A DNA stretch of 57,117 nucleotides from an uncultured Oscillospiraceae bacterium. Lineage in GTDB: Bacteria > Bacillota > Clostridia > Oscillospirales > Oscillospiraceae. The DNA lies in NCBI GenBank assembly GCA_947629955.1, contig CANRFT010000011.1, positions 1 to 57,117 on the forward strand. Reading direction: 5' to 3'. Made by a program: the position numbers and the translations under genes. The notes under the pieces were generated by a model, which worked only from the letters and a program-made list of their open reading frames with translations, was not told where the DNA came from and did not search any database. Positions 471-46,673 of this stretch are shown here, in pieces. How positions within the stretch are numbered: the first letter of the stretch is position 1; the number at the start of each line of letters is the position of its first letter.

Positions 471-489
471 TGTCTAACGGATTTCTAAC
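471..489. repeat. Arm-type integrase sites, left end
   Basis: TGTCTAAC and TTTCTAAC, 11 bases start to start (one helical turn), overlap the integrase stop region. The right end has TGTCTAAC twice with the same spacing and orientation. Phased 8-base direct repeats near both ends are typical of integrase arm sites. Confidence 0.5.
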
Positions 490-1645
490 GGGCAGCTGGA
501 TCGGCCTTTCCTGCCAACGCAGATTCGATGGTGTCGGCCATATCTTGTTTGGCAGAGTAGAGAAAATGGGAGTAAATGTTCGCCGTCGTGGCGATGTCGC
601 TGTGCCCCAGCCATCCCTGGATGTCCTGAATATCACGGCCGGCCCCGTGGAGCAGGGTCGCCACGCTGTGGCGAAGGTCATGGAACCGGATGCGGGGCAG
701 GCCGCTCTTGTTTATCATCCGTCTGAAGTGTAAAGACATGGCGTTGGGGGCCACCGGCTTTCCGTCCGGAGTCGTGCAGACATATCCGCTGTCCACATAG
801 GCCGCGCCGAGGAACTCTTTTTCTTTCTGCTGGTTTTCCCGCACGCTTTTGAGGTATTCTTTCATGGTTTTTGTCAGCGGCAGGGTCCGACAGCTGCTCC
901 GGGTCTTTGTGGTGTCCGCATAGATGACGCCCTCTTTGCTCTGTACCGCTGTGTGGCAAATCGAGATAGTGCCCTTTTCAAAGTTTACCGCATCCCAGCG
1001 CAGACCCAGCACCTCGCTGCGGCGCAGACCGTATGTAGCCGTCAGGCGAACCACCGTCTCCAAAACATCGCCCCGGAAGAATTCCATCAGCTTTTGCAAC
1101 TCTTCAGGAGAGTAGATCGTGCCGCACTGCTTGTGCTGCTTCTTTGGCAGCACTGTCCGATCCGCCGGGTTACGGTCGATGATGTCCAGCTGCATGGCAT
1201 ACTGAAGGCATCTGTGGATGTTGGTGTGGTATTTCCGAACCGTTGCCGGCGAAACACCGCGCTTGATCTGCTGGTTATAGAGCCCTTGGATATAAGCGGG
1301 GGTAAGGCCTCTCAGTGTCACATTACGGAATGGAGGATAGGGCTCGATCACGTTCCGAAATACTGCCTTATACTGCTCCAGCGTAGTGCTGCGGATGGAG
1401 TAGGCCTCCACGTTATCCAGCCACTGGGCCATGAACGGCAGGAAAGGCTGGTCTGCCCCCGTGAGGATGCAGCTTTTGGCCGATTTCAGCTTTTCGATCT
1501 CCTGTTGCAGAATATTTTCAGCCCGACGCTTGTTTCCCCTCACCGGCAGACCGGTGGCGATCCATTTTTGCTTCCGTTTCTCTCCCTCATTCCAGGAGAG
1601 AACGACATAATACTTATCTCGTTTGATTTGCAGGCTACCTGTCAT
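485..1645 (-). CDS. int: Tyrosine recombinase / integrase
   Basis: This 386-residue site-specific recombinase should integrate and excise the element. The N-terminal part (about 1-60) looks like the AP2/arm-binding domain of Tn916-type integrases, followed by a SAM-like core-binding domain (about 68-165) and the catalytic domain (about 175-370). The active-site set is complete: R208 in YGLRRSE, K247, H322 and R325 in HDLRH, H348 in GWLGHSD and nucleophile Y358. The ATG is preceded by AAAGGAG. It lies 90 bases from the att core and 97 bases from the excisionase-like gene, same strand. All residues needed for activity are present, so the element may still be mobile. Confidence 0.95.
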   Translation of the reverse strand: MTGSLQIKRDKYYVVLSWNEGEKRKQKWIATGLPVRGNKRRAENILQQEIEKLKSAKSCILTGADQPFLPFMAQWLDNVEAYSIRSTTLEQYKAVFRNVIEPYPPFRNVTLRGLTPAYIQGLYNQQIKRGVSPATVRKYHTNIHRCLQYAMQLDIIDRNPADRTVLPKKQHKQCGTIYSPEELQKLMEFFRGDVLETVVRLTATYGLRRSEVLGLRWDAVNFEKGTISICHTAVQSKEGVIYADTTKTRSSCRTLPLTKTMKEYLKSVRENQQKEKEFLGAAYVDSGYVCTTPDGKPVAPNAMSLHFRRMINKSGLPRIRFHDLRHSVATLLHGAGRDIQDIQGWLGHSDIATTANIYSHFLYSAKQDMADTIESALAGKADPAAR

Positions 1646-1723: not shown

Positions 1724-1742
1724 CGATTTTTATCAGCGTGGC

Positions 1743-3042: not shown

Positions 3043-3080
3043 GGGCCGGGGAGCGAAAACTTTCTTCGCTCCCCGGGCCC
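3043..3080 (-). terminator. Strong hairpin, minus-strand T run
   Basis: GGGGAGCGAA pairs with TTCGCTCCCC and the stem extends by GGGCC/GGCCC with one bulge. Reading leftward, the hairpin is followed by CCCTTTTTG, the pattern of an intrinsic terminator for minus-strand transcription. Confidence 0.6.
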
Positions 3081-3147
3081 GGGTGGTACCTTTCATATTG
3101 ACTTGCTGTGAACCGCGCTGTTGTTTTGGCACACTACCGACCGCATC

Positions 3148-3721: not shown

Positions 3722-3748
3722 ATCGACTTGTTCACGGAGGTGCTTAAC

Positions 3749-3757
3749 ATGGACTAA
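3749..3757 (+). other. Minimal ORF (ATG GAC TAA) with ribosome site
   Basis: A textbook GGAGG lies 8 bases before an ATG that is followed at once by GAC TAA, and a hairpin AGGCCCGGAAAC/GTTTTCGGGCCT (3761-3788) starts 3 bases later. This may be the scar of a truncated gene or a tiny translational leader. No transcription start was found for it. Confidence 0.3.
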
Positions 3758-3842
3758 GTAAGGCCCGGAAACTTATGTTTTCGGGCCTCTTGCGCCGTAT
3801 TATCCGAGTTCCCGGTTCTAACAATATTCGGTGACAAATTGT

Positions 3843-3882
3843 CGATAGAGTTGGACTTGAAGTCCAGCTCTATCGCTTTTTT
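3843..3882 (+). terminator. Intrinsic terminator with T6 tail
   Basis: CGATAGAGTTGGACT pairs with AGTCCAGCTCTATCG (one G-T pair) and is followed by TTTTTT. It isolates the cargo promoter 40 bases downstream from leftward or upstream transcription. Confidence 0.85.
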
Positions 3883-3922
3883 CCACAAATCAGATGCACA
3901 ATTTTTGTTAATAACGGCAATA

Positions 3923-3971
3923 TTGACAAATGCAATAATAAGCAATATTATATATGTGGTCAGAACAGTAA
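3923..3971 (+). promoter_or_regulatory. Promoter and GntR operator of the sugar-acid operon
   Basis: TTGACA (3923-3928), a 17-base spacer and TATTAT (3946-3951) form a strong sigma-A promoter. Five bases after the -10 box is TGGTCAGAACAGTAA (3957-3971). The identical 15-mer stands at the same 5-base distance from the -10 box of the oxidoreductase operon (14416-14430) and a close variant precedes the GntR pair (10911-10925). Its position at the start site implies repression relieved by a ligand. Confidence 0.85.
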
Positions 3972-4010
3972 ATACAGCAATGAGAGGTAAAATAACTGGG
4001 AGGGGTCTGT

Positions 4011-4283
4011 ATGAAGCCAAACGCACTTTTGCTCAATGACAAGGACAACGTCGTAACGGTAACAAGAAGTCTAAGCGCAGGAGAAAACGTGGTTTTCCTC
4101 GCAGGCGGGGAGTATGTAACTTTGATCACCTCTGGCGTCCCAGCCTACCATAAGGTCGCCCGCAAGGATATCCAGGCAGGCGAGGATGTGGTGAAGTACG
4201 GCCAGGTCATGGCCGTGGCCACCACCAACATCAAAACCGGTGAACACGTTCACACGCAAAACGTAAAAAGCAAAGTACAATGA
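4011..4283 (+). CDS. SAF-domain small subunit of a UxaA-family dehydratase
   Basis: This 90-residue protein is a stand-alone SAF domain, the N-terminal module of altronate/galactarate dehydratases; features include LSAGENVVFLAGGEYV and a conserved KYGQVMAVATTNIKTGEHVH near the end. It presumably pairs with the large subunit encoded next. First gene after the regulated promoter, ribosome site GGGAGGGG. The separate small and large subunits are seen both in sugar-acid dehydratases and in sulfolactate sulfo-lyase (SuyA/SuyB), so the substrate cannot be fixed from this gene alone. Confidence 0.85.
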   Translation: MKPNALLLNDKDNVVTVTRSLSAGENVVFLAGGEYVTLITSGVPAYHKVARKDIQAGEDVVKYGQVMAVATTNIKTGEHVHTQNVKSKVQ

Positions 4284-4297
4284 AAGGAGCTGCTCAT

Positions 4298-5464
4298 ATG
4301 GAATTCTGGGGATATCGCAGGCCGGACGGTAAAGTCGGTGTACGAAATCATGTGCTTGTAGTGGCTACGGTCGGCTGCGCCGGCGAGGTAGCCAGAAAGG
4401 TCGCGGAAAGTCTCAACGGGACTGTCTCTTTTGTCTGCCAAGGCGGCTGCGCGGCTGGCATCAAGGATCTGGAGGCCACCCGTGCGGTCCTTCTGGGGAT
4501 GATCGCAAATCCCAATATTTACGGCACCGTGGCCATTGGTCTGGGCTGTGAGTTCAACAAGATGGAGGACTTCCTGGCGCTTGCCAGAGAGCGCACCTGC
4601 AAGCCCATCGTGGGATTCACGATTCAGGAGGAGGGCGGCTCCATCAACACGATCGCCGTGGCGACCCGCGCCGCCCAGCAGATGGTCTCAGAGGCGACGG
4701 AATGTGTCCGGGAGCTGTGTCCCATTTCGGAGTTGACCCTCGGCATTGAGTGCGGGGGATCCGACGCCACCTCCGGGCTGGTGTCCAATCCCGTGATGGG
4801 TTTGGTTTCGGACAAGCTGATTGCGGCCGGCGGCACCTCTATGTACAGTGAGACCGTTGAAATGATTGGCGCAGAGCACCTGCTGGCGGCTCAGGCGGCG
4901 GAACCTGCCGTCGCGCAGCGCATCCTTGAGGTCGTGAAAGGCCGTGAGGAGGAGCAGATCCGTTCTGGCGAGGACATCCGAAAGATCCAGCCCTCTCCGG
5001 GCAATAAAGCAGGCGGGATCACCACTCTGGAAGAGAAGTCTTTGGGCTGTGTCCATAAGGGCGGCCACACACCTGTTATGGAGATGTGTGCCTACGCCCA
5101 GGTCCCCACCAGAAAAGGACTTGTGCTGATGGACACCCCCTGCTTTGATCTTCTCTCCGTTACCGCCAAAATAGCGGGTGGCTGCCAGGTGGTCGTCTTC
5201 ACTACCGGCCGTGGCAATACCATCGGCAACCCCGTCGCCCCCGTCATGAAGGTCACAGCCAACGTGGACACCTATCACCATATGCTGGACAACCACGATG
5301 TGGATATGAGCGCCGTTGTCGCCGGCGACCGCTCTCTGGAGGAACAGGCCGATATCACCCTGCAGGAGATCATCAAGGTCATGAACGGCAAGCTCACCAA
5401 GGCGGAGATCCAGAAATTCGGCTATGCGGAAACGGTAGTCAGCCAGCCCACCGATTATATCTGA
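4298..5464 (+). CDS. UxaA-family dehydratase large subunit
   Basis: This is the catalytic C-terminal module of the altronate dehydratase family (about 388 residues), which eliminates water from a sugar acid to give a 2-keto-3-deoxy acid, using a metal centre. Family marks: FWGYRRPDGKVGVRNHV at the start, GIECGGSDATSG in the middle and FTTGRGNTIGNPVAPVMKV near residue 320. An ATG at 4280 overlaps the previous stop, but the ribosome site AAAGGAG fits the ATG at 4298, which also gives the normal family start. Substrates to consider: altronate, galactarate, or, as SuyB, (R)-sulfolactate; the enolase-superfamily partner downstream favours a sugar acid. Confidence 0.88.
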   Translation: MEFWGYRRPDGKVGVRNHVLVVATVGCAGEVARKVAESLNGTVSFVCQGGCAAGIKDLEATRAVLLGMIANPNIYGTVAIGLGCEFNKMEDFLALARERTCKPIVGFTIQEEGGSINTIAVATRAAQQMVSEATECVRELCPISELTLGIECGGSDATSGLVSNPVMGLVSDKLIAAGGTSMYSETVEMIGAEHLLAAQAAEPAVAQRILEVVKGREEEQIRSGEDIRKIQPSPGNKAGGITTLEEKSLGCVHKGGHTPVMEMCAYAQVPTRKGLVLMDTPCFDLLSVTAKIAGGCQVVVFTTGRGNTIGNPVAPVMKVTANVDTYHHMLDNHDVDMSAVVAGDRSLEEQADITLQEIIKVMNGKLTKAEIQKFGYAETVVSQPTDYI

Positions 5465-5495
5465 GACCCGGTCCCGCAGAAACGGCGGTGCGCAA

Positions 5496-5786
5496 ATGAA
5501 GCACTATGTTTACCTAAAGCTTACTGAGAGCTGCGACATAGCGGCGTTGATTGGGGAGACGGAGCGGGTCCTCCGGAAAGCCCAAAACTCGTTGGAAGGC
5601 CTGGAGACCTTTCAACTGCTGCAGGAATTCAACGGTGGCGCCGATCCCTGCTCCCTTCTGATCATTTTATCCTTCCGCTCTGAGGCGGATAAAGATACCT
5701 TCCTGAAATGCCCGCTGCACCAAAGACTTCTTCAGATGATCAAGGCATCCGTTGCGATGAAATCGGTATTTGATATCACCGCATAA
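5496..5786 (+). CDS. Small Dabb-like (stress A/B barrel) protein
   Basis: A 96-residue protein opening with MKHYVYLKL, with the length and alternating strand/helix pattern of dimeric alpha/beta-barrel (Dabb) proteins. Such proteins often sit beside sugar-acid and CoA-transferase genes, with unknown or minor roles. It lies 31 bases after the dehydratase and 21 bases before the transporter, so it is within the operon. The Dabb assignment rests on size and pattern only. Confidence 0.55.
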   Translation: MKHYVYLKLTESCDIAALIGETERVLRKAQNSLEGLETFQLLQEFNGGADPCSLLIILSFRSEADKDTFLKCPLHQRLLQMIKASVAMKSVFDITA

Positions 5787-5807
5787 TAAATAAGGAGGAA
5801 ACACATT

Positions 5808-6920
5808 ATGAAAAAAAAGAGTTTGACCGCATCGTTCATCGGCGTTTCCGCAGTCTGGATTGGCGGCCACTTCGGCCCTGGCTTTGCAACCGGCACCTCT
5901 ATGACAACCTGGTTCGTGCGCTACGGGATTGCCGGCATTTTTCTGCCTCTGATTTCCATGGCTATCACAGCCGGCGTCATGTACTTCATGATGGAGTTTG
6001 CCCGGCGTAAGCAAACCTATAACTACAGGGACCTGGCCTACAGCATTTATGGCGAAAAGGGCGGCAAGGTCATGACCCTGATGTACGACATTGTATTCCT
6101 GGTTACCGTCATGTGCGCCGGTGGTCTGTGCGTCTCCGGCCTTGCCTCTCTGCTGGAAGCACACTTGGGCCTGCCCTACTGGGGCGGCGCAGCTATTACC
6201 ATTGTGCTGGCAGCTCTTCTCTGTCTCTACGGTTCCAAAGTCTTAAGCAACGCCTCCGCATATATGATGTATTTCATCATCGGTGTCGTTGTTCTCATCG
6301 TCGCGATGTCTTTCATCTTTGGCGACTACGATTTGGCCGGTTCTTTTGCCAATGCCTCCACAAACACGAAAGATCCCAGTTTCCTCAGCGCCCTCTGGCA
6401 CGCGGTGCTGTATGGCTTCTTCCAGTCCGGCCTTTGCTTTAACGTTGTCTCCGTCTCAGATGTGCTGGAGGACAATAGCGCATCCCAAAAGGCTACCGGC
6501 TGCGGTTTCCTGATCAATATTGTGCTGATGGTAGCGGTTATCTTTATGATGTTCAGTTATACAAATGTCTTTGATGTTAGCGGCGATACGTTGCCGATTT
6601 ACTCCATCCTGGGGCGTCTGGGTTTCGGATGGCTGACTTGGGTCTATGTGATCCTGATGGCCTTGGCCGTTCTCACTAGCGCTGCTGGTCTGGCTTACGC
6701 CGGGACCGTCCGTTTTGATTCCGTGCTTAAGGGGATCCAGAACAAGAAGGCGCGCAGCGCTATCATCACCATCGTCCTGCTGGGTCTGGCCACCGCGGCG
6801 GCTTCTTTCGGCCTCAAGTCCCTGATGTCCACCGGCAACTCCATCATCGGCTATCTTTGCATTGTAGTAATCGTGATTCCTGCGTTTACGATTGTCCGTG
6901 CGAAACTGAAGAAGGACTGA
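5808..6920 (+). CDS. YkvI-family membrane transporter
   Basis: A 370-residue integral membrane protein with about ten hydrophobic segments. The first segment carries GGHFGPGFATGTSMTTWF, the glycine-rich broken helix typical of the YkvI family (LeuT-like fold, uncharacterised). In this operon it is the only transporter and probably imports the acid that the two dehydratases consume. The ribosome site AAGGAGG lies 8 bases before the ATG. Substrate unknown. Confidence 0.8.
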   Translation: MKKKSLTASFIGVSAVWIGGHFGPGFATGTSMTTWFVRYGIAGIFLPLISMAITAGVMYFMMEFARRKQTYNYRDLAYSIYGEKGGKVMTLMYDIVFLVTVMCAGGLCVSGLASLLEAHLGLPYWGGAAITIVLAALLCLYGSKVLSNASAYMMYFIIGVVVLIVAMSFIFGDYDLAGSFANASTNTKDPSFLSALWHAVLYGFFQSGLCFNVVSVSDVLEDNSASQKATGCGFLINIVLMVAVIFMMFSYTNVFDVSGDTLPIYSILGRLGFGWLTWVYVILMALAVLTSAAGLAYAGTVRFDSVLKGIQNKKARSAIITIVLLGLATAAASFGLKSLMSTGNSIIGYLCIVVIVIPAFTIVRAKLKKD

Positions 6921-6925
6921 GTTTC

Positions 6926-8137
6926 ATGAAAATCACAAAAATCGATGTTATGCTGGTCCACCCGGATTTCCGCACTGGGGAGGTCACCAATATGCAGGCC
7001 GTCTTTGGCAAGTGCCGGCCCATCATGGTGCGGATCCACACGGACGAGGGCCTCTACGGGGATGGCGAGGCGGGCCTTCAATTCGCTTTCGGCGCATTGG
7101 CTGCCGTAGGAATGCTCCGCGATTTTGCCCACATGCTCATTGGAATGGATCCCTTGAAGAACGAACAAATCTGGGATAAGCTGTACCGGCAGGGTTACAT
7201 GACGCAAGTGGGAGGTCCTGTAATATATGCGGCTGTGTCCGCCTTTGACATGGCAATCTGGGACATTAGGGGTAAATACTTCAACACCTCTGTGGCCACC
7301 TTGCTTGGCGGCAGCCGCAGGGACAGGATCCGCTGCTATGCAAGCCAGCTCCAGTTCGGCTGGGGAGCGGACAAGACCCCCGCCACCAAAACGAAACAGT
7401 ATGCGGAAAACGCCCGGAAGGCCATCGCAGACGGATACAGCGCGGTGAAATTCGACTTCTTCACCTTCGACCGGGACGGCCGCTCCTTCAACGAGGACGA
7501 CCGGACCAAGCTGCTCTCCCCCTACTATGTGGGCTTGGTGGAGGAGCGCGTGGCGGCTGTGCGGGAGGCCATCGGTCCCCAGAAGGATCTGATTGTAGAA
7601 GGTCACTCGTTTACCGATGCGGCCTCGGCCATTCAAATCGGAGAGGCAATTCGGAAATATAATATTTTCTACTATGAGGAGGCCTGTACCCCCACGCCGA
7701 AGATGCAGAAATTTGTCTATGACGCGCTGAAGATCCCCATGAGCAGCGGTGAGCGCATTTTCTCCAGATGGCAGTACGCTCCCTACATCGAGAACCAGTC
7801 CTTGCAGGTCCTCCAGCCGGATCTCTCCAACTGCGGCGGCATCACCGAAGCGAAAAAGATCGCGGACATGGCCTATATCTATGATATCAGCATCCAGGGC
7901 CACCTGTGCGGCTCGGCCTTGTCTATGTCCGCTACCCTGCAATTTGAGTCTGTCATCCCCAATTTCCTGATCCACGAACACCACGTAGAGCAGTTCCAGC
8001 CCTATATGAACGATCTCTGCACAAAAAATTTCGCCCCGCAAAACGGCTGGTTCGACGTTCCCCAGGGACCGGGCCTCGGTACGGAACTCTCCGAATATGC
8101 GCTGACCCACTGCGACAAATGGACTATAGACAGCTGA
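6926..8137 (+). CDS. Enolase-superfamily sugar-acid dehydratase
   Basis: A 403-residue mandelate-racemase/muconate-lactonizing type enzyme. The N-terminal capping domain is followed by a TIM barrel with metal-ligand motifs VEGHS, YYEEACTP and SSGERIF, then QPDLSNCGG and a late His in IQGHLCGSA as a likely acid/base. This pattern fits galactonate/gluconate/mannonate-type dehydratases that form 2-keto-3-deoxy acids. The start at 6926 has AAGGA ten bases upstream, and it follows the transporter stop by 5 bases, hinting at translational coupling. Having two unrelated dehydratases in one operon suggests two epimeric substrates or consecutive dehydrations. Confidence 0.88.
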   Translation: MKITKIDVMLVHPDFRTGEVTNMQAVFGKCRPIMVRIHTDEGLYGDGEAGLQFAFGALAAVGMLRDFAHMLIGMDPLKNEQIWDKLYRQGYMTQVGGPVIYAAVSAFDMAIWDIRGKYFNTSVATLLGGSRRDRIRCYASQLQFGWGADKTPATKTKQYAENARKAIADGYSAVKFDFFTFDRDGRSFNEDDRTKLLSPYYVGLVEERVAAVREAIGPQKDLIVEGHSFTDAASAIQIGEAIRKYNIFYYEEACTPTPKMQKFVYDALKIPMSSGERIFSRWQYAPYIENQSLQVLQPDLSNCGGITEAKKIADMAYIYDISIQGHLCGSALSMSATLQFESVIPNFLIHEHHVEQFQPYMNDLCTKNFAPQNGWFDVPQGPGLGTELSEYALTHCDKWTIDS

Positions 8138-8178
8138 GTCAGCGGCGTCTTTCACAGAACTGATACTGGAGGTAGCTC

Positions 8179-9399
8179 ATGGCACAGAATTTACCGCTCA
8201 GCGGCCTTCGCGTTGTGGAACTTGCGACCATCGTCGCCGCGCCCACCGTGGGCCGCATGATGGCAGCGTACGGCGCAGAGGTGATCAAAGTCGAAACGCT
8301 TGCCGGCGACGGCCTTCGCCCCTTTGGAAAGGGCCACTGTTTGCCCACGGAAGACGGCAACAGCCCCCTGTTCGATCTGTACAACAGCGGCAAAAAGTTC
8401 ATCTCTCTAAACCTGAAAACCGAGCAGGGCAAGGAGGCATTCGACCGCCTGCTGGCCGGCTCCGATGTCTTTCTGACGAATGTCCGCTGGCAGGGTCTGA
8501 AGCGAATGGGGCTGGACTATGATTCCCTAAAGGAAAAGTATCCCAGACTGGTCTATGGCCATTTCTCCGGCTTTGGTCTGAAAGGCGCGGATGCCGACCG
8601 TCCGGGATATGACATGACTGCCTTCTGGATGAGGTCCGGTGCTCTGCAGGACTGGCTGCTGCCAGACTCCTTTCCCATGCGGCCCACCTTCGGCTTTGGG
8701 GATGTGGCCACAGCCTCCGCTTTTCTCAGTGGGATCATGATGGCGCTCTATGCCAGAGGAAACACAGGGAGGGGCACCATGGTCTCCTCGTCCCTGCTGG
8801 GCGGCGGTATCTGGTGCAACTCCGCCTATGTCCTCAACGCCCAGGAGCCGTATAACCGTCCCTATCCCATGGAGCGCTATGACCCTTGGAACCCCTTTGG
8901 CGAGTGGTATCAGTGCTCCGACGGCAATTGGGTAGCAGTATTCGAAAAAAGGTATGCGACAGACCGATTCACTTACGCAAAGCTCTTTGATTTTCCGGAG
9001 TTAGCAGAAGACCCGGATCTGGAGGACCTGACCAAAATGCGCCAGTCCGGCAAACTGCCCATGGTCACCAAGCGGGTCTCTGAGGCATTTTTGAAAAAGC
9101 CGTCACAGGAGTGGCTGAAGATCCTGGCAGAGCACGATATTCCCAGTGAATTACTGAGGCATTTCAAAGATGTATGCAAGGACGAACAGGCATGGGAAAA
9201 CGGATATTTCGACCGGGTGGAGTATCCCGACGGTGCAAAAGTCGCAATGCCGGCACCGCCCATCAGCTTTCCGGAATATGAACGCAAGCCGTTCAAAATC
9301 AACCGATCCATCGGTGAGGACACCGCCGAAATCCTGACCGCACTGGGTTATACAGCGGTGGAAATAGAAGAAATGCGCCGAGATAAAGCGGTTATCTAA
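8179..9399 (+). CDS. Class III (CaiB/BaiF) CoA-transferase
   Basis: A 406-residue family III CoA-transferase, moving CoA from an acyl-CoA donor to a free acid. The N-terminus has LSGLRVVELATIVAAPTVGR and the catalytic aspartate is D145 in RPGYDMTAF. It has a GGAGG ribosome site and is the last gene before a 21-bp hairpin. Its presence with sugar-acid dehydratases is unexpected: the classical pathways phosphorylate 2-keto-3-deoxy acids. It may activate the substrate or an end product such as a dicarboxylate or deoxy-acid. Confidence 0.9.
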   Translation: MAQNLPLSGLRVVELATIVAAPTVGRMMAAYGAEVIKVETLAGDGLRPFGKGHCLPTEDGNSPLFDLYNSGKKFISLNLKTEQGKEAFDRLLAGSDVFLTNVRWQGLKRMGLDYDSLKEKYPRLVYGHFSGFGLKGADADRPGYDMTAFWMRSGALQDWLLPDSFPMRPTFGFGDVATASAFLSGIMMALYARGNTGRGTMVSSSLLGGGIWCNSAYVLNAQEPYNRPYPMERYDPWNPFGEWYQCSDGNWVAVFEKRYATDRFTYAKLFDFPELAEDPDLEDLTKMRQSGKLPMVTKRVSEAFLKKPSQEWLKILAEHDIPSELLRHFKDVCKDEQAWENGYFDRVEYPDGAKVAMPAPPISFPEYERKPFKINRSIGEDTAEILTALGYTAVEIEEMRRDKAVI

Positions 9400-9449
9400 A
9401 AAGCGGCAAGGCCAGGCTCAATTAAATCGAGCCTGGCCTTGCCGCTTTT
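9399..9449. terminator. 21-bp perfect bidirectional terminator
   Basis: AAAAGCGGCAAGGCCAGGCTC and its exact complement flank a 9-base loop, with A4 and T4 tails. It ends the convergent sugar-acid operon and the GntR pair; the stop codons of both flanking genes lie in or at the stem edges. Confidence 0.95.
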
Positions 9450-10182
9450 ACACATGATACAGGGCGTTGGCGATGCTTTGGATATGCTCGTTGTTTCTCT
9501 GGACAGCTTTCTCCGAGTCCCTTTGAACAATGGCCTCAAACAGTCCGAAATGCTGTTTCAAAATATTTTTTGCCAATTGTGTCTTCTCCTCCTCGGACAT
9601 CTTAGCCGCGCTCGCAAGCATTTTTTCATTGGAGAATTTTGATGTGATCCTCATGATCAGGTAAAGCATTTCGTTGTGCGAGGACCTTGCCATGGCGCCA
9701 TTGAAGCGGTTTCCGTTTTCCATGGACCTCTCAAAATCGGATGTGATCCCTTCGCCGTAGGATAGGATATCCTTCATCACCCGGATATCCTGATCCGTTC
9801 GGTTCTGAGCGGCAAGAGAAATCGACAATGGTTCGCATACATTCCGAATATCCAAAATATTGTCCACAGAAACAAGGCTTAGACGAACTAAGTTTGAGAG
9901 CGTTCGCTCAACTTCGTCTGTGGACAGCTTGTTGACGATCGTCCCTTTCCCGCGGGAGATGGTGACGTAGTTCTTGTTTTCCAGCATGCGAAGCGCTTCC
10001 CGCACGGTGGGGCGGCTGCGTTGGAACATTTCAATCAAATCCCGCTCAGGTGGGAGCTTATCCCCCGGCTTCAATTCTCCGGAGAGGATCTTGGAGCGGA
10101 TCTGCTCATAAATCGCCACAGAGGCTTTTTGAGGGGGCGGAGAGGCAGTCTCCTGCTGAAAGGCAAGGCATTTATCCTTCAT
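9448..10182 (-). CDS. GntR-family (FCD) regulator 1
   Basis: A 244-residue FadR-subfamily repressor: winged helix at about 20-90 (ILSGELKPGDKLPPERDLIEMF and RSRPTVREALRMLE) and an all-helical FCD ligand domain after 95. It overlaps the stop region of GntR regulator 2, the two forming an operon. FCD regulators usually bind organic acids, here plausibly a sugar acid or its keto-deoxy derivative. It is a candidate reader of the TGGT(C/A)AGAACAG operators. Confidence 0.92.
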   Translation of the reverse strand: MKDKCLAFQQETASPPPQKASVAIYEQIRSKILSGELKPGDKLPPERDLIEMFQRSRPTVREALRMLENKNYVTISRGKGTIVNKLSTDEVERTLSNLVRLSLVSVDNILDIRNVCEPLSISLAAQNRTDQDIRVMKDILSYGEGITSDFERSMENGNRFNGAMARSSHNEMLYLIMRITSKFSNEKMLASAAKMSEEEKTQLAKNILKQHFGLFEAIVQRDSEKAVQRNNEHIQSIANALYHV

Positions 10183-10895
10183 TAGCGATCCTCCTTGTCT
10201 GGCTCGGCCATCTGCCAGTTTTCCCAGCAGACGCGGACGAGGCTTGCGGCTCTTTCCGGTTCTTCTTTTCGGATTGCATCCAGAATATCTCTATTGGCAG
10301 CCTGGAGCAATCGAATATCCTGAATTTGAATGGAACCAAAATCACGCTGAAGCTTCTCTGATGTCCAGAACCGCTCCATGGTGTTCCAGAACACATACAG
10401 AAGCGGGTTGTGGGTGGCCTTCATCAATTCTACATGGAATGTGAACATTTTGATGGTATAGTCAACGGCATCATCGGTGCTGTTCTCCATGGCTTCGCAG
10501 AGTTCCTCCAGGCTCACCAGGTCTTCCCATGTATAATGCTGTATGGTCTGCTTGATGAATTCCGGCTCAGCAAGTTTTGCAAAGAGATAAATATCCGTAA
10601 TCGATACCCTGCGGAATTCCAGCAGTTCGCCGATGGATTCCTGAATGCCCTCTGTGCTGTTATAGCACACCTCTGCGCCGCCGCCGGGAATAACACGGAT
10701 GTAATTTGAAGACTCAAGCATCCTCAGTGCTTCCCGAATGGTGGGATGGCTACGTTTGTATATTTCCATCAAGTCCCGTTCGGAAGGAAGTTTATCCCCC
10801 GGTTTGAGCTGTCCGGACAAAATCAGATTTTCAATTTGCTCAAAGACATACTCATTTGCTTTCTTTGTCTCTACTGGAGTAAAGTTCATCGCCAT
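10182..10895 (-). CDS. GntR-family (FCD) regulator 2
   Basis: About 237 residues, again FadR-like: NLILSGQLKPGDKLPSERDLMEIYKRSHPTIREALRM is the winged-helix region, in pieces identical to regulator 1, then an FCD domain. The ATG at 10895 is preferred to the GTG at 10904 because AGAGG stands 8 bases before it. Its own promoter carries a variant of the shared operator, so autoregulation is likely. Two similar FCD regulators in tandem could form heterodimers or sense different intermediates. Confidence 0.92.
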   Translation of the reverse strand: MAMNFTPVETKKANEYVFEQIENLILSGQLKPGDKLPSERDLMEIYKRSHPTIREALRMLESSNYIRVIPGGGAEVCYNSTEGIQESIGELLEFRRVSITDIYLFAKLAEPEFIKQTIQHYTWEDLVSLEELCEAMENSTDDAVDYTIKMFTFHVELMKATHNPLLYVFWNTMERFWTSEKLQRDFGSIQIQDIRLLQAANRDILDAIRKEEPERAASLVRVCWENWQMAEPDKEDR

Positions 10896-10910
10896 ATTAT
10901 ACACCTCTAT

Positions 10911-10968
10911 TATCTGTTCTTACCAATTTCCTTTTGATAATTATAAGATACATTTTTAGAGAAGTCAA
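10911..10968 (-). promoter_or_regulatory. Promoter and operator of the GntR pair
   Basis: On the minus strand TTGACT (10968-10963), a 17-base spacer and TATAAT (10945-10940) form a near-consensus promoter. TGGTAAGAACAGATA (10925-10911) lies 14 bases downstream, matching the sugar-acid and oxidoreductase operators at 12 of 15 positions. Confidence 0.8.
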
Positions 10969-10995
10969 GCGCTATCATGGTGAAGATATAAAGAA

Positions 10996-11032
10996 AAAGG
11001 GTCGGGCCTTTCTTCAACTGCCCGACCCCTTT
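10996..11032 (-). terminator. Terminator of the oxidoreductase operon
   Basis: GGGTCGGGC pairs with GCCCGACCC (loop 12). On the minus strand the stem is followed by TTTTTCTTT, just past the gamma-subunit stop. Confidence 0.85.
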
Positions 11033-11035
11033 ATA

Positions 11036-11584
11036 TTACTTCTGGCTCCGCCCGATCTCCAGGCCCTTCTCGAAGGCCTGCTTGTTCAGGGGGAGCAGCT
11101 TGGGCTTGGAGCCCAGCTTGTGCTCGATAGTGTCCCACACCACGTCGGGGGGAACTACTTCGGTGTAGCCCACGTACACGCCCAGCATGATCACGTTCAG
11201 CACCTTGGCGTTGCCCATCTCCAGCGCCATCTCGGTCACGGGGGCCTTGACCAGCTTCACGTCGGAGCGGGTCACTTCCTTCTCGTCCACGATGGAGCTG
11301 TTGATGAACAGGGTGCCGCCCTGCTTCAGGGTGGGCAGGAACTTGGCCAGGGAGGGGCCGTTCATGACGATCAGGTCGTCCATCACGTCCCCCAGGGGGG
11401 CGCCGATGAGCCCGTCGGAGATGACCACGAAGCAGTTGGCGGTGCCGCCCCGCTGCTCCGCGCCGTAAGAGGGGAAGAAGGTCACGTTCTTGTCGGTGGA
11501 GTCACAGGTGGCCTGGGCCAGGAACTTGCCCAAGGACATGACGCCCTGCCCGCCGAAGCCGGCTACGCACAGATTGGTTTCCAT
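11036..11584 (-). CDS. 2-oxoacid:ferredoxin oxidoreductase, gamma subunit
   Basis: 182 residues of the gamma (POR_N-type) subunit: NLCVAGFGGQGVMSLGKFLA at the N-terminus, then FFPSYGAEQRGGTANC. With the alpha, beta and ferredoxin subunits it oxidises a 2-oxoacid to its acyl-CoA, reducing ferredoxin. Last gene of the five-gene operon, 12 bases after the beta subunit, followed by a terminator. Confidence 0.93.
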   Translation of the reverse strand: METNLCVAGFGGQGVMSLGKFLAQATCDSTDKNVTFFPSYGAEQRGGTANCFVVISDGLIGAPLGDVMDDLIVMNGPSLAKFLPTLKQGGTLFINSSIVDEKEVTRSDVKLVKAPVTEMALEMGNAKVLNVIMLGVYVGYTEVVPPDVVWDTIEHKLGSKPKLLPLNKQAFEKGLEIGRSQK

Positions 11585-11596
11585 ATCCAGCCCTCC

Positions 11597-12337
11597 TCAC
11601 TTCTTGTCCCGGACGACGCCCAGGGGATACTCCGGCAGCATCTTCTGCTCGATGAAGTCCAGCGCGTCCAGGGGATCCAGGCCCCAGTTGGTGGGGCAGC
11701 TGGTGACGATCTCCACCAGGGAGAAGCCCTTGCCCTCCAGCTGGTACTTGAACGCCTTCTTGATGGCGTTCTTGGTCTTGATGACGTTCTGCGGGGTGTT
11801 GCAGCTCACCCGCTCCAGATAGTGGGGGGCGGTGAGCTGGTCCAGCAGCTCGCAGACGTGCATGGGATAGCCGTGTTCCTCGGCGTTGCGGCCTTTGGGG
11901 GCGGTGGTGGCCTTCATGCCCAGCAGGGTGGTGGGGGCCATCTGGCCGCCGGTCATGCCGTAGATGCCGTTGTTGATGAAGATGACGGTGAAGTTCTCGC
12001 CCCGGTTGGCGGCGGAGACGGACTCGGCCAGACCGATAGAGGCGAAGTCGCCGTCGCCCTGGTAGGTGAACACAAGGGAGTCGGGGCTGGTGCGCTTGAT
12101 GCCGGTGGCCACGGCGCAGGCGCGGCCGTGGGGGGCGGTGATATTGTCATAGGCGATGTAATCCATGTGGAGGCCGCAGCAGCCGATGCCGGTGATTGCA
12201 ACGCTTTTATCAATAACTCCTAATTCATCAATAGCTTCGCCGATAAGTTTGATGACGGTGGAGTGCATGCAGCCGGGGCAGAAACCGGAGACCTTGTTCT
12301 CCTGGATGGTCAGCGTGCGCGAATAGATCTTTTCCAT
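11597..12337 (-). CDS. 2-oxoacid:ferredoxin oxidoreductase, beta (TPP) subunit
   Basis: A 246-residue thiamine-diphosphate-binding subunit. The TPP/Mg motif runs from GDGD (94-97) to NNG (122-124, NNGIYGMTGGQ), and an N-terminal CPGC (20-23) is typical of KOR/VOR-type beta subunits. It forms the active site where the 2-oxoacid is decarboxylated. It lies 13 bases after the alpha subunit and 12 before gamma. Confidence 0.94.
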   Translation of the reverse strand: MEKIYSRTLTIQENKVSGFCPGCMHSTVIKLIGEAIDELGVIDKSVAITGIGCCGLHMDYIAYDNITAPHGRACAVATGIKRTSPDSLVFTYQGDGDFASIGLAESVSAANRGENFTVIFINNGIYGMTGGQMAPTTLLGMKATTAPKGRNAEEHGYPMHVCELLDQLTAPHYLERVSCNTPQNVIKTKNAIKKAFKYQLEGKGFSLVEIVTSCPTNWGLDPLDALDFIEQKMLPEYPLGVVRDKK

Positions 12338-12350
12338 ATCTCGTTCCCCC

Positions 12351-13430
12351 TTACTTGGCCAGGATGGCGTCCACGGCCTCGAGGACGGCCTCCCGGCTCA
12401 TGATGTTGCCGCCGGAGCACAGGCAGGTCTCGATGGGGCAGCGGCCCTTGACGCCCAGCTCCACGTCCTGTACCAGCTGGGCGGGGATGGACATCTCCAC
12501 GTCGAGCACGGCCTTGCACACGTCATAGTTGATCTTGTCGAAGGAGCTGTAGGGGAAGGGGTGGACGGTGATGGGGCGGATGAGGCCCACCTTCTTGCCG
12601 GCAGCCCGGCAGATATCTACCACGGACTTGCCAATGCGGGCGCAGATGCCGTAGGCCGCGATGACCACCTCGGCATCCTCGATTTGATATTCCTCTACCT
12701 GCAAATCCTTTTTCCATGAAGCATAAACCGCAGCAGCTTCTTCGTTTTGCTTTTGCATAATAGCAGTATCCCATTGACCGGGGGCGATCCAGGAGCGGTT
12801 GGCGTAGTCCAGCTTATGCCCGATGCAGGCCCAGCCGGACTTGGAGGCCTTGATGGCGGCCACCTCCTCGTCGGTCTTCATGGGGGGCAGCTCCACCGGC
12901 TCCATCATGGTGCCGATGACGCCGTCCGCCAGCAGCAGCACGGGGTTGCGGTCCCGGTCCGCGTAGTCGAAGGCGGCGTAAGTCAGGTCCACCGCCTCCT
13001 GCACCGTGGAGGGGGCCAGCACCAGCATCTCAAAGCCGCCGTTGCCGCTGGCCTTGGTGGCCTGGAAATAGTCCTGCTGAGCGGGCTGGATGGCGCCCAC
13101 GCCGGGGCCGCCACGGCTGATGTTGGCGTACACCATGGGGATGCGCGCGGCGGCGCAGTAGGAGATGCCCTCGCTCTTCAGCGCGATGCCCGGGGAGGAG
13201 GAGGAGGTCATGCTCCGGGTGCCCGCGGCGGCGGCGCCGTAGACCATGTTGACCGAGGCAACCTCGGACTCGCCCTGGACGAACACGCCGCCCACCTCGG
13301 GCAGCCGCCGGGCGAAGTACTCGGGGATCTCGTTCTGCGGGGTGATGGGGTAGCCGGCGAAGAAACGACAGCCGGCCCGGACGGCCGCTTCGGCGATAGC
13401 CTCGCAGCCCTTCATCAGTTTTCTTGCCAT
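12351..13430 (-). CDS. vorB: 2-oxoacid:ferredoxin oxidoreductase, alpha subunit (VorB-like)
   Basis: A 359-residue alpha subunit with the pyrimidine-binding domain first (GYPITPQNEIPEYFARRLPE, then TSSSSPGIALKSEGISY) and the transketolase C-like domain last. The sequence resembles VorB of 2-oxoisovalerate (branched-chain 2-oxoacid) oxidoreductases, but KorA of 2-oxoglutarate enzymes is close and substrate cannot be settled by eye. Sharing an operator with a sugar-acid operon would fit 2-oxoglutarate or another 2-oxoacid released by that pathway. Confidence 0.88.
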   Translation of the reverse strand: MARKLMKGCEAIAEAAVRAGCRFFAGYPITPQNEIPEYFARRLPEVGGVFVQGESEVASVNMVYGAAAAGTRSMTSSSSPGIALKSEGISYCAAARIPMVYANISRGGPGVGAIQPAQQDYFQATKASGNGGFEMLVLAPSTVQEAVDLTYAAFDYADRDRNPVLLLADGVIGTMMEPVELPPMKTDEEVAAIKASKSGWACIGHKLDYANRSWIAPGQWDTAIMQKQNEEAAAVYASWKKDLQVEEYQIEDAEVVIAAYGICARIGKSVVDICRAAGKKVGLIRPITVHPFPYSSFDKINYDVCKAVLDVEMSIPAQLVQDVELGVKGRCPIETCLCSGGNIMSREAVLEAVDAILAK

Positions 13431-13445
13431 GTTCGTTTCTCTCCT

Positions 13446-13649
13446 TTACTTATAGACTTCGATGGCGCCGTCGGGGCAGACCCGGGCGCACATGCAGCAG
13501 GCGATGCATGCCTCCTGGTTGACGGGCTCCGCGTATTCGTAGCCCTTGGAGTTGACGTTCCTGCCGATCGCCAGCACGCCCTTGGGACAGTACTTCACGC
13601 AGTACTTGCAGCTCTTGCAGCGCTCGGCGATCACTTTGATCATTGCCAT
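13446..13649 (-). CDS. 2x[4Fe-4S] ferredoxin subunit
   Basis: A 67-residue delta subunit with two cluster motifs, C11-x2-C14-x2-C17-x3-C21 and C48-x2-C51-x2-C54-x3-C58, both followed by Pro. It carries electrons from the TPP site to external ferredoxin. It lies between the P-loop ATPase and the alpha subunit, 15 bases from the latter. Confidence 0.95.
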   Translation of the reverse strand: MAMIKVIAERCKSCKYCVKYCPKGVLAIGRNVNSKGYEYAEPVNQEACIACCMCARVCPDGAIEVYK

Positions 13650-13699
13650 GGCGAATCCTCCTTTCCCCGTTGAATTTTACAGCTTGTATCAAAAGGCTT

Positions 13700-14392
13700 T
13701 CACATAAGCCAGGGATACACCAGTTCCAGCCGGACGGGCAGCACCGGCTCCTCCACCGCCCCGGCGGCCTCCGCGGCGATCTCCTCACGGGCGCAGGCGA
13801 AGGCTACAGGCAGGTAGGGGCTGATGAGCTCCACGGTCCGCCGGTGGCCCGCCGCAAACTCCTCTACGGTGGTGGTGACGCCGTTGTTAGGGTTGGACAC
13901 GATGGTCAACTGGTCCAGCCGCACGTGGGACATCCCCAGGATCTTGCCCAGGGTCTCGTCGATGTGCTCGATGGTGTCCGACCAGGGCCGGTAGGCGTTG
14001 ACCACATACAGCACCGCCGTCTCCGGCCGGTTCAGCTGGGGGGCAAAGCCGCCGATGGACCGGGCGCCGATGTAATCGCCTCCCACGTCCATGACCACCA
14101 GACAGCCGGGGTCCCGGAGCATGGGCTCCACGCCGCCCACCAGAGTGGGGGCGTCCATGAACTGCTCCATGAAATGGACGGTGACGCCCTCCGCCTCCAG
14201 TTTCGCCGCCGCGTCACGGGAGCGGAACAGGGGCTTGGTCATGTCCAGGTCGAAGAAGTGAACGGGCAGGGGGGACCGCTCCGCCAGCCGCCGGGCGAAG
14301 GTCATGGCCACCTCGCTCTTGCCGCTGCCCGCCTCGCCAATAAATACGAAGTTCTTGGAGGATGAATTCGGAGTATAAAATAGAGAAGTCAT
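13700..14392 (-). CDS. P-loop ATPase leading the oxidoreductase operon
   Basis: A 230-residue cytosolic nucleotide-binding protein with Walker A GEAGSGKS (19-26), Walker B-like CLVVMDVGGDYIGAR (about 98-112) and a likely base-recognition YVVNAYRPW. It resembles the SIMIBI/MinD-like group without membrane helices. First gene of the oxidoreductase operon, 50 bases before the ferredoxin. Co-transcription suggests a chaperone, metallocluster or cofactor-loading role for the oxidoreductase, but no function is established here. Confidence 0.75.
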   Translation of the reverse strand: MTSLFYTPNSSSKNFVFIGEAGSGKSEVAMTFARRLAERSPLPVHFFDLDMTKPLFRSRDAAAKLEAEGVTVHFMEQFMDAPTLVGGVEPMLRDPGCLVVMDVGGDYIGARSIGGFAPQLNRPETAVLYVVNAYRPWSDTIEHIDETLGKILGMSHVRLDQLTIVSNPNNGVTTTVEEFAAGHRRTVELISPYLPVAFACAREEIAAEAAGAVEEPVLPVRLELVYPWLM

Positions 14393-14415
14393 TATCCCAA
14401 TCCGCCTATACTATA

Positions 14416-14464
14416 TTACTGTTCTGACCAATAAAATTATATGGCTATGTTGATTGTTTGTCAA
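14416..14464 (-). promoter_or_regulatory. Promoter and GntR operator of the oxidoreductase operon
   Basis: TTGACA (14464-14459), a 17-base spacer and TATAAT (14441-14436) form a consensus minus-strand promoter. TGGTCAGAACAGTAA (14430-14416) begins 5 bases after the -10 box, the same 15-mer at the same distance as in the sugar-acid operon promoter 10.5 kb away. Confidence 0.88.
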
Positions 14465-14502
14465 GCTCTTTTTTGCTTGAGGAAGAATCTTTATGGTATC
14501 AT

Positions 14503-14902
14503 GTGCAGCGCCTGGAATGCACAGACTGGCGCGCTGTCTGACTTCAACGCTGAGTGGATCCGTGCCCTTCTGCGCGACGCGATCCATAATGTTCTGTATG
14601 TCCAAGCCAACAGTCTGGCCGTGAACGGACTGGCACACGGGGCGGCCTATGACCCCGGTTTCCCGGTCTACAAGATCATCCTGATCGCGGCCTGGGTGCT
14701 GGTGGGTATCGGGATCGTGGTTGGCGGCTTCTTCGTCTATCGGACGATCCCCTGGACCGAGGATCGCTGGTACGGCAGAAAACGCATCACAAAGAAGGGC
14801 TGGATCATCATCGGCTGTGTGGCGGCAGCCATCGTTGCGGCCATTGTCATCGCGTTCTGTGTGCTGATCCTGCCTGAGTTAACCAAAGCGCTTGTCATGT
14901 GA
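14503..14902 (+). pseudogene. C-terminal remnant of a membrane-anchored GH3 glycosidase
   Basis: The frame ends with about 130 residues that align by eye with the end of the intact GH3 at 24890-27892: LLRDAIHNVLYVQANSLAVNG here against MLRESQHGFYYMLANSNVIN there, each followed by one transmembrane helix. The remnant has a second helix near the end (IIIGCVAAAIVAAIVIAFCV). Everything upstream of the last helix of the barrel is gone; the frame opens only because an ATG occurs at 14441 inside the oxidoreductase promoter. This marks a deletion or insertion junction near 14,500. Confidence 0.7.
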
Positions 14903-40434: not shown

Positions 40435-40741
40435 ACAGATGACCTCCAATCAGATTTGGTTAGCTGGTAAGACCAATACTGTGCTTTTTTTACCCCGCTG
40501 CTCTGCGGGGCAGGACGGCTGCCAATGAGGCCGCCCTTTTTTCTATTCCTTTTTACCACACATAGTTAGCTAAGTCAACCTTATATTTTTTTATTTTTGA
40601 GCAAAACGCCACTTTCTACGGTTTGCACAAAGTGGAGTTTGGTTTTTCTGGCAATCTGACTGGAGATTTTGCCTTGACAAGCCTTGTTGAACCTACTATA
40701 CTGGTATTACCAGTTAGATAGGGCTTGGGGGGGTGAATCAA
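40435..40741. promoter_or_regulatory. Divergent control region of the 2-hydroxyacyl-CoA pathway
   Basis: Rightward promoter: TTGACA (40674-40679), 17 bases, TATACT (40697-40702); palindrome ACTGGTATTACCAGT (40700-40714) overlaps the -10. Leftward side: TGGTAAGACCA (40465-40475), a copy of the same operator core; its promoter is unclear, possibly TTGACT (40578-40573), 17 bases, TAAAAA (40555-40550). A GGACGGC/GCCGCCC hairpin with T6 (about 40513-40542) lies between on the plus strand. Confidence 0.8.
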
Positions 40742-45870: not shown

Positions 45871-46614
45871 TTACAGCGTTCCCCCGCTCAGATCCTCCCC
45901 GAATGCGGTAAGGTGGATGCGCATGGCGGCGCTGGCGCTCTCGGCGTCACCGGCCCTGATGGCGTTAAAGATGGTCACGTGCATCTGGTGGACCCGCCGG
46001 TTCATTTCCAGCCGTGCGTCCGCCGGCATGGACGCCATCTGCCGGATCATGAAGGTGCGGTTCAGCCGGCTGAAGGTGCGGTTGAAGATGACGCTCACCG
46101 AGTTCTTGGCCGCCTTGGCGATGAGGCCGTGGAAATCGGGGTCCATGTTCACCGACTGCTCGTAGTCGTCCAGGCAGTCGGCCATCCGGGCCAGCATGGC
46201 CTCCATGGCGCGGATGTCCTCCTCCGTCCTGCGCTGGGCGGCCCAGGCAGCGGTGACCGCCTCGCTGGAGGTGCGGTACTCCGCCAGCTCGGGCAGAGGG
46301 ATGTGGCCAATGGACAGCGCGTCGGTGAGGGAGTTCTCCAGGTTCTTGTCGTTGGGCGGCATGACCACCGCGCCGTTGCTGCCGGCAATGGTGCGGATAT
46401 AGCCCGCACGCTCCAGCATCCGCAGGGCCTCCCGGATGGTGGGGCGGCTGCGCCGGAACATCTCGATCATATTGCGCTCACTGGGCAGCCGGTCGCCGGG
46501 CTTCAACTCTCCCCGGACGATCAGGTCCCGGATCTGTTCAAAAATGGCCTCGCTGGCTCTCTTCGTCTCCACCGGGCGGAAGATGCCGGAGGTTTGGGTC
46601 TGTTCAAATTCCAT
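45871..46614 (-). CDS. GntR-family (FCD) regulator 3
   Basis: 247-residue FadR-subfamily protein: winged helix (about 20-90; GELKPGDRLPSERNMIEMFR, RSRPTIREALRMLE) and FCD domain. Its own promoter and that of the dehydratase operon carry the same perfect palindrome, so it is the probable repressor of the pathway, with the 2-hydroxyacid or its CoA ester as likely inducer. Confidence 0.92.
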   Translation of the reverse strand: MEFEQTQTSGIFRPVETKRASEAIFEQIRDLIVRGELKPGDRLPSERNMIEMFRRSRPTIREALRMLERAGYIRTIAGSNGAVVMPPNDKNLENSLTDALSIGHIPLPELAEYRTSSEAVTAAWAAQRRTEEDIRAMEAMLARMADCLDDYEQSVNMDPDFHGLIAKAAKNSVSVIFNRTFSRLNRTFMIRQMASMPADARLEMNRRVHQMHVTIFNAIRAGDAESASAAMRIHLTAFGEDLSGGTL

Positions 46615-46632: not shown

Positions 46633-46673
46633 ACTGGTAAGACCAGTATAACATATCAGAAGGGGAAAGTCAA
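46633..46673 (-). promoter_or_regulatory. Autoregulated promoter of GntR 3
   Basis: TTGACT (46673-46668), 17 bases, TATACT (46650-46645). ACTGGTCTTACCAGT (46647-46633) overlaps the -10 by three bases, the same geometry as ACTGGTATTACCAGT at the activator promoter. Confidence 0.88.

Follow-up and report, generated by a model that had tools for sequence, protein, structure and literature searches.

Background

Three regulons of other bacteria are the closest described systems to the gene cluster reported here: the gluconate regulon of GntR1 and GntR2 in Corynebacterium glutamicum, the hexuronate regulon of UxuR and ExuR in Escherichia coli and the galactonate regulon of DgoR in E. coli. The cluster lies in the DNA of an uncultured Oscillospiraceae bacterium (assembly GCA_947629955.1, contig CANRFT010000011.1, positions 1 to 57,117); this whole stretch of 57,117 nucleotides (nt) was analyzed and is called the window. 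The cluster itself, called the island, is composed of six genes for sugar-acid use (operon 1), a pair of GntR-type regulator genes, for which the names GntR1 and GntR2 are used here also, and five genes of a 2-oxoacid:ferredoxin oxidoreductase operon (operon 2). Published papers are cited for the excerpts of them that were available.

In C. glutamicum the two paralogs share one operator near +1 and act there as redundant repressors (PMC2230225). The island is similar in having two GntR paralogs, sugar-acid catabolism and a shared type of 15-bp site, the operator being of the FadR-subfamily class and within 1-2 mismatches of TNGTNNNACNA, and in having several sites near +1, which fits repression (PMC2230225). 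The C. glutamicum genes are apart and redundant, whereas the island genes overlap in one operon and differ in the recognition helix and the effector pocket, and the island regulon includes a ferredoxin-linked oxidoreductase, unlike that of C. glutamicum (PMC2230225). UxuR and ExuR are also a paralogous sugar-acid GntR pair, with reported heterodimers and autorepression, but they serve Ashwell enzymes, and neither a CoA-transferase nor a ferredoxin oxidoreductase is among the targets named in the excerpt (PMC9369180). DgoR is a FadR-family GntR repressor which likewise overlaps a sugar-acid promoter; it is a single regulator with a metal site, whereas GntR1 and GntR2 of the island each lack part of the histidine set (PMC7674646).

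It is likely, in our judgement, that the island carries a local repressor regulon of FCD-type GntR proteins on a probably acquired catabolic segment, with a duplicated oxidoreductase recruited into it. Such control is common among FCD-GntR regulators; what is unusual is the second oxidoreductase, drafted under another promoter, and the asymmetric operator with its regulator pair.

Operator sites and promoters

The following promoters and operators were read from the sequence.

Operon 1, + strand: sigma-70-type promoter and operator, TTGACA 3923-3928, TATTAT 3946-3951, TGGTCAGAACAGTAA 3957-3971
GntR pair, - strand: promoter and operator, TTGACT 10968-10963, TATAAT 10945-10940, TGGTAAGAACAGATA 10925-10911
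Second oxidoreductase copy, - strand: promoter and operator, TTGACA 14464-14459, TATAAT 14441-14436, TGGTCAGAACAGTAA 14430-14416

The 15-mer TGGTCAGAACAGTAA is identical at 3957-3971 (+) and 14430-14416 (-). It follows 5 nt after the -10 box in both outer promoters, which are TTGACA-17-TATTAT for operon 1 (3923-3971) and TTGACA-17-TATAAT for the oxidoreductase operon (14464-14416, where a pattern search returned an overlapping alternative with a spacer of 19). The promoter of the GntR pair is TTGACT-17-TATAAT, then 14 nt, then TGGTAAGAACAGATA (10925-10911, -), which has 3 mismatches against the 15-mer. In each of the three island sites one side is TGGT and the opposite side AACA.

An earlier note on this DNA had claimed two identical 15-mers placed 5 nt past their -10 boxes and a related site after the GntR promoter, and both are present as described; the equal promoter distance which it also claimed is true of the two outer promoters and not of the GntR promoter. 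Its view that one operator type marks all three transcription units, including the promoter of the GntR pair itself, is borne out. The distance of 10.5 kb between the twin sites was given correctly, but the units are not remote: the outer promoters point inward and converge on the GntR pair, so this distance is the length of one cluster. A regulon of two remote operons was rejected, since the units adjoin. Of the regulon reading as a whole, the shared FadR/FCD-type operator is retained, and the separate units are replaced by one cluster whose oxidoreductase operon is a second copy.

Genome-wide occurrence of the motif

A genome-wide scan for the motif, which the earlier note had proposed, was done on 2,208,210 bases in 75 contigs. 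The joint pattern TGGTMAGAMCAGWWW has four exact matches, none of them outside the window (3957, 10911, 14416 and 46635); that these sites match exactly is partly by construction, because the pattern was drawn from them. Two more places were found at one mismatch, window 40698 and C36:1463, of which the latter (TGGTCAGAACAGCAA) was rejected as an operator, being inside a serine-recombinase frame. At two mismatches or fewer there are 27 matches and the reversed pattern gives 37, so the weak matches are noise. The core palindrome TGGTNNNACCA is found at 16 places against 70 for its reversed control and hence is by itself no marker of the regulon; TGGTNNNAACAG occurs 9 times in the genome.

Alternatively, the 15-mer might be a chance repeat, or an element common to the promoters or leaders on which no regulator acts. 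Repeats of 15 bases are not rare in the window, where 90 repeated 15-mers fall in 32 place pairs (Markov-1 simulations: mean 8.7, maximum 16 in 20 simulations). When pairs of 68-nt promoter regions were shuffled, however, only 3 of 200,000 single-base shuffles shared a 15-mer. A search for the 15-mer with up to 3 mismatches gave four matches, and shuffles gave a mean of 0.72 and a maximum of 3, none of 100 reaching 4. The equal distance from the -10 box in two otherwise unlike promoters, the known class of the operator and the adjoining regulators of that class also speak against a chance or leader element, which is regarded as very improbable.

Regulators and operator class

The regulator genes of the window and the operators of the third regulator are as follows.

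9448..10182, - strand: GntR1, regulator of the FCD type with Arg at FadR position 45 and Asn in place of the first FCD His (family search, alignment)
10182..10895, - strand: GntR2, regulator of the FCD type with His at FadR position 45 and without the second and third FCD His (family search, alignment)
45871..46614, - strand: GntR3, third FCD-GntR of the window, with a related regulon, outside the island (family search)
46635..46649, + strand: symmetric operator TGGTAAGACCA at the GntR3 promoter, the fourth exact match of TGGTMAGAMCAGWWW (pattern search)
40465..40475, + strand: symmetric operator TGGTAAGACCA upstream of the CoA-transferase gene 39190-40449 (-) (pattern search)
40702..40712, + strand: symmetric operator TGGTATTACCA at the promoter that serves 40733 (+), the activase gene of the 2-hydroxyacyl-CoA dehydratase (congener G001 has equivalent sites)

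The operator consensus of the FadR subfamily is TKGT-N3-ACMA (PMC4494728). One half of the island sites fits it and the other half is one base off (C to A), and by sequence these sites look like FadR/FCD-type GntR operators with one half changed (AACA for ACCA). The GntR3-type sites of the window fit the consensus. Two of them, at 40465 and 40702, sit in the divergent region between a minus run of genes (CoA-transferase, acyl-CoA dehydrogenase, EtfBA and FAD-oxidase) and a plus run of 2-hydroxyacyl-CoA dehydratase genes. Congener G001 (locus L231) has the same dehydratase cluster, a GntR3 ortholog with 63% amino acid (aa) identity and TGGTCAGACCA at both equivalent intergenic places, and this footprint suggests that TGGT-N3-ACCA is probably read by this clade of regulators. 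Because the same operator family serves the different regulon of GntR3, the motif alone cannot name the regulator which acts on the island.

It could be, for instance, that GntR3 also controls the island and that GntR1 and GntR2 have other targets, since the GntR3 site TGGTAAGACCAGTAT is only 3 bases off the 15-mer and GntR3 has Arg45 as GntR1 does. This is rather unlikely in our opinion, as each of the three island sites has A for C at a base which is normally fixed, the island contains the GntR pair, whose own promoter bears a site, and GntR3 has a separate, conserved regulon.

All three proteins pass the Pfam cut-offs for both the GntR helix-turn-helix and the FCD domain, and the FCD domain was matched 5 times in the genome, three of them inside the window. 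GntR1 and GntR2 are 36% identical over 172 residues, and the value against GntR3 is 34%. The genes of the pair overlap by one base; uxuR and exuR of E. coli are not known to lie in tandem. Matches to GntR2 (E <= 1e-12) were obtained in 28 of 394 genomes of the order, its own included, and the best elsewhere is 37% identical. An alignment of 27 rows was made, for which 7 of 31 loci had no usable frame and in which row L228 is GntR3 a second time; the window residues were numbered by the FadR helix sequence as we take it to be. Position 45 is Arg in 25 of the 27 rows, GntR3 among them, Lys in one and His only in GntR2. Of the three FCD histidines the first is missing from GntR1, and the other two are missing from GntR2. 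All three are kept in 18 of the 25 other rows (9 of 9 in an earlier, chosen set) and incomplete in 7, so the loss is a weak sign of a special pair. These histidines bind metal in Tm0439 and Ps5454 but are not universal, FadR being without them (PMC7674646).

A further reading is that GntR1 and GntR2 form a heterodimer on the asymmetric operator, in which Arg45 of the one would read TGGT and His45 of the other the changed TGTT, so that the island operators are kept apart from the symmetric GntR3 sites TGGT-N3-ACCA. The island sites are asymmetric in three of three cases, and symmetry is seen in the GntR3-type sites, of which the window has three and the intergenic region of G001 two; His45 is confined to GntR2, Arg-45 of FadR contacts guanine in the FadR-DNA complex (PMC4494728), the two proteins have lost different FCD histidines, and UxuR and ExuR were reported to heterodimerise (PMC9369180). 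On the other hand, the pattern comes from a single genome whose relatives have no footprint of it, individual GntR sites may depart from the palindrome (PMC4494728), a homodimer of GntR1 may bind in spite of one weak half, and GntR1 is hardly closer to GntR2 than either is to GntR3. The frequency of histidine loss in the other rows made us lower our estimate slightly, and the heterodimer is now held as a tentative and somewhat doubtful proposal. Among the papers listed in a literature search on GntR/FCD operators, none names such a heterodimer in its title or the beginning of its abstract; the reports on UxuR and ExuR were found separately.

Probable second copy of the oxidoreductase operon

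The five genes of operon 2 are read toward the GntR pair.

11036..11584, - strand: 2-oxoacid:ferredoxin oxidoreductase gamma, second copy (Pfam POR 6.5e-36)
11597..12337, - strand: 2-oxoacid:ferredoxin oxidoreductase beta (thiamine pyrophosphate, TPP), second copy, changes clustered at residues 36-49 (Pfam TPP_enzyme_C 1.4e-21)
12351..13430, - strand: 2-oxoacid:ferredoxin oxidoreductase alpha, VorB type, second copy, changes clustered at 196-243 (NF005507, 430 bits, above the cut-off of 399)
13446..13649, - strand: ferredoxin subunit with two clusters (two CxxCxxCxxxCP motifs; 95.5% identical to congener locus L140)
13700..14392, - strand: P-loop NTPase, first gene of the operon, first codons unlike the native copy (translation, comparison)

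A VorB-type set is complete in this operon, with alpha, beta (TPP), gamma and ferredoxin subunits (Pfam POR_N, PFOR_II, TPP_enzyme_C, POR). It is read as a second copy of a vor operon common in the genus, with a different promoter and 5′ end, and was compared with 20 vor loci (15 of congeners, 3 of the family and 2 of the order). The genus operons have the same order of genes as the window copy (NTPase-Fd-alpha-beta-gamma), but the window copy has the operator-bearing promoter, other first codons and the changes at alpha 196-243 and beta 36-49. The genes that follow the NTPase are the same in the 20 loci up to the end of each stretch, with the exception of L152, where the ferredoxin was not found. 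None of the 20 has an operator-like site in the 150 nt before its NTPase gene; operator matches elsewhere in L146 and L147 were rejected, both being inside open frames. The alpha subunit reaches 95% identity in congeners. For the NTPase, 13 congeners have identities of 69-89%, a 14th has 86% over part of the length and two others have 55%; NTPase matches (E <= 1e-8) were obtained in 131 of 247 genomes, its own included, most of those outside the genus being weak. The NTPase had no Pfam match over the cut-off (only a marginal TniB), no NCBIfam match and no confident PDB match. In the 20 loci (L140-L159) it is the first gene of the vor operon, and its product is perhaps an accessory or maturation factor of the oxidoreductase. 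The sequence TCTTGCAAAAT was observed upstream of the native NTPase genes of 11 of the 20 loci (L140, L142-L150 and L152) and on contig C50; it is probably a different regulatory site, which the window copy lacks.

Both ends of the native copy are present in the same genome. Contig C50 starts with the 5′ end of an NTPase gene and the native promoter, and contig C16 starts with beta and gamma genes, its positions 1-1263 having 94.2% nt identity to window 11035-12297 (73 differences in 1263). C50 and C16 align directly upstream and downstream of vor in congeners G030 and G029 at 90-92%, and on this synteny of the native ends the window operon was rejected as the native one. In a porB-porG comparison C16 groups with G030 and G029 (96-97%) and the window copy stands at 94%, the split between them having almost no support (0.029); the second copy may have arisen inside the lineage or come from a congener. 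Among the amino acid differences between the window copy and G030, alpha 196-243 holds 13 of 18 and beta 36-49 holds 8 of 16. By DNA, the 200-nt bins 12593-12792 and 12193-12392 are 75.5-84.5% identical to three congeners, and the other bins from 13592 to 11193 are 92-98%; gene conversion or selection on substrate specificity are possible causes of the two diverged bins.

Sugar-acid genes and borders of the island

Operon 1 and the two flanks of the lineage-specific segment have the following features.

4011..4283, + strand: SAF domain protein, small subunit of a split UxaA-type hydratase (Pfam SAF 2.4e-6)
4280..5464, + strand: large subunit, UxaA/galactarate-dehydratase-type sugar-acid dehydratase (Pfam GD_AH_C 4.2e-86, GD_AH_second 7.2e-35)
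5496..5786, + strand: Dabb-like A/B barrel protein (Pfam Dabb 1.5e-4, 22.8 bits, below the cut-off of 25)
5808..6920, + strand: hydrophobic protein, presumed substrate transporter (hydrophobic translation)
6926..8137, + strand: enolase-superfamily (MR_MLE) dehydratase (Pfam MR_MLE_C 8.2e-52)
8179..9399, + strand: family III CoA-transferase (Pfam CoA_transf_3 3.1e-83)
485..1645, - strand: tyrosine recombinase/integrase on the left side of the segment (translation; family-level NCBIfam matches below curated cut-offs)
14498..14902, + strand: 3′ remnant of a GH3-type glycosidase gene at the right border (93% to the 3′ end of an intact 1034-aa frame of congener G029)

The large subunit scored 201 bits with the galactarate dehydratase equivalog TIGR03248, below its cut-off of 730.85, and by sequence it may at most be called a UxaA-type dehydratase. 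The presumed transporter had no match in Pfam and NCBIfam searches; the name YkvI-like, which comes from no search, is used for it tentatively. The closest solved structures of the MR_MLE enzyme are 2ox4 (1e-115), 2o56, 4e6m and 2gl5, whose titles give only putative mandelate racemases or dehydratases. In Ashwell degradation of hexuronates or aldonates a kinase and a 2-keto-3-deoxygluconate (KDG) aldolase gene are expected. In operon 1 (six genes) and operon 2 (five genes) Pfam and NCBIfam gave no match to a kinase or aldolase family; the transporter-like protein had no match at all, the NTPase had the marginal TniB and the ferredoxin was judged by sequence.

Split SAF and UxaA-type hydratases are also known from plasmids of Salmonella enterica, Metabacillus and E. 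albertii, with large subunits 45-51% identical. All three are annotated next to a 2-keto-3-deoxygluconate permease, two of them also next to a DHDPS-family aldolase and one next to a semialdehyde dehydrogenase; unlike in the island, no CoA-transferase, MR_MLE enzyme or such oxidoreductase is annotated in the plasmid stretches shown. Two other UxaA-type dehydratases occur in this genome (C36:3366-4487 and C15:24272-25402), the one on C36 near a serine recombinase and a hydrophobic protein which by eye resembles a GntP-type permease.

Window 453-14497 was compared with four congeners, with 40 candidates scored in each genome, and among the matches listed all are shorter than 160 bases except the vor copy. 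Window 1-109 and 139-452 match G030:C37 on the left. The GH3 name of the remnant on the right rests on the DNA similarity of the G029 frame to the GH3 gene of the window at 24890-27892 (-). A tRNA-borne island was rejected, the window having no tRNA. As a unit operon 1 was found in none of the 6 loci of MR_MLE relatives or the 10 UxaA-type loci examined. MR_MLE enzyme matches were found in 22 of 99 genomes, its own included (best elsewhere 54%), and of the six loci four have an adjoining GntR gene and one a CoA-transferase, which is 28% identical. Matches to the transporter (E <= 1e-30) are limited to 3 of 394 genomes of the order, one its own and the other two at 27%. The UxaA-type subunit is common in the class (114 of 391 genomes, E <= 1e-60), and in the ten loci, two of which are the other copies of this genome, only SAF and UxaA2 recurred. 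CoA-transferase relatives on plasmids are about 36% identical or less among the eight matches listed; of two that were opened, one has an unrelated neighbourhood and the other is unannotated. In E. coli genomes no relatives of the CoA-transferase were found at the DNA level. The borders against four congeners, the tyrosine recombinase and the absence of the operon 1 unit from the loci examined suggest a lineage-specific, probably acquired segment. The literature, as judged from listings, gave no description of this combination of a UxaA-type dehydratase, CoA-transferase, enolase-superfamily enzyme, ferredoxin oxidoreductase and GntR genes.

Proposed regulation and pathway

In the proposed mechanism three sigma-70 promoters would be under one FadR-type operator, those of the dehydratase/CoA-transferase operon, of GntR1-GntR2 and of the second oxidoreductase. 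A GntR dimer bound past the -10 box would block initiation, and the sites at 5 or 14 nt past the box fit such repression by a block of RNA polymerase; the acid or one of its breakdown products would release the regulator. From the enzyme families, the substrate would be imported and converted by one or two dehydrations into a 2-oxo-3-deoxy acid, from which the oxidoreductase would form an acyl-CoA by ferredoxin-linked oxidative decarboxylation. Exchange of CoA by the CoA-transferase would be a further step, and the order of steps is presumed. The vor duplicate would have been recruited by replacement of its native promoter and first codons with an operator-bearing promoter, if the exchange went in this direction, and its alpha and beta subunits would then have diverged in two short segments. 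Anaerobic life is suggested by the ferredoxin-linked and 2-hydroxyacyl-CoA dehydratase enzymes.

Several points weigh against this account of a local regulon. In its second half the operator breaks the consensus at a base that is normally fixed, the identities given to the Dabb-like and transporter-like proteins are weak, and the three sites are without a phylogenetic footprint, since operon 1 as a unit is in no locus examined. The native vor copy may serve the pathway too. C50 opens with 77 nt that match window 14262-14338 without a difference, the assembly lacks the middle of the native copy (a genome search found no second full alpha gene) and C16 has no long exact overlap with the window, so that a misjoin inside the copy is possible.

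The second copy could then be an artefact of assembly or of a strain mixture, in which a real operator promoter was joined to the native vor genes via a short shared stretch. That C50 ends exactly 77 nt into window-identical sequence resembles an assembler overlap, and 77 is a usual k-mer length of assemblers; the missing middle of the native copy would be explained as well. However, there are 73 differences in 1263 positions between the 3′ ends of the window and C16 copies, and the two 5′ contexts are both present. Compared with three congeners, the window copy also diverges along its full length (down to 75.5-78% in one 200-nt bin), and a simple misjoin to the native operon is disfavoured for that reason. 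An artefact is considered unlikely, and the recruited duplicate remains the preferred reading.

A wider proposal joins all parts: an acquired island, an obligate GntR1/GntR2 heterodimer which insulates it from GntR3, an oxidoreductase duplicate captured by gain of the operator and re-specialised, and an undescribed anaerobic route from a sugar acid to acyl-CoA and reduced ferredoxin. Taken together we consider this improbable. The regulon would illustrate the recruitment of an energy-conserving oxidoreductase to new control through duplication and an exchange of promoters, with the native and derived copies in one genome. It would also be a compact case of the separation of specificity among paralogous GntR proteins, with one operator base and one contact residue changed, and if the enzymes form one route, ferredoxin-reducing use of sugar acids in an anaerobe would be added.

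Other observations in the window

The region 34848-46649 has the appearance of a second FCD-GntR regulon, a 2-hydroxyacyl-CoA dehydratase cluster with the three symmetric operators listed above. Its acyl-CoA dehydrogenase is nearest to acryloyl-CoA reductase, with a score under the cut-off for that enzyme. The other genes of the region encode the activase, two HGD-D subunits, a CoA-transferase III, EtfBA and a GlcD-like FAD oxidase.

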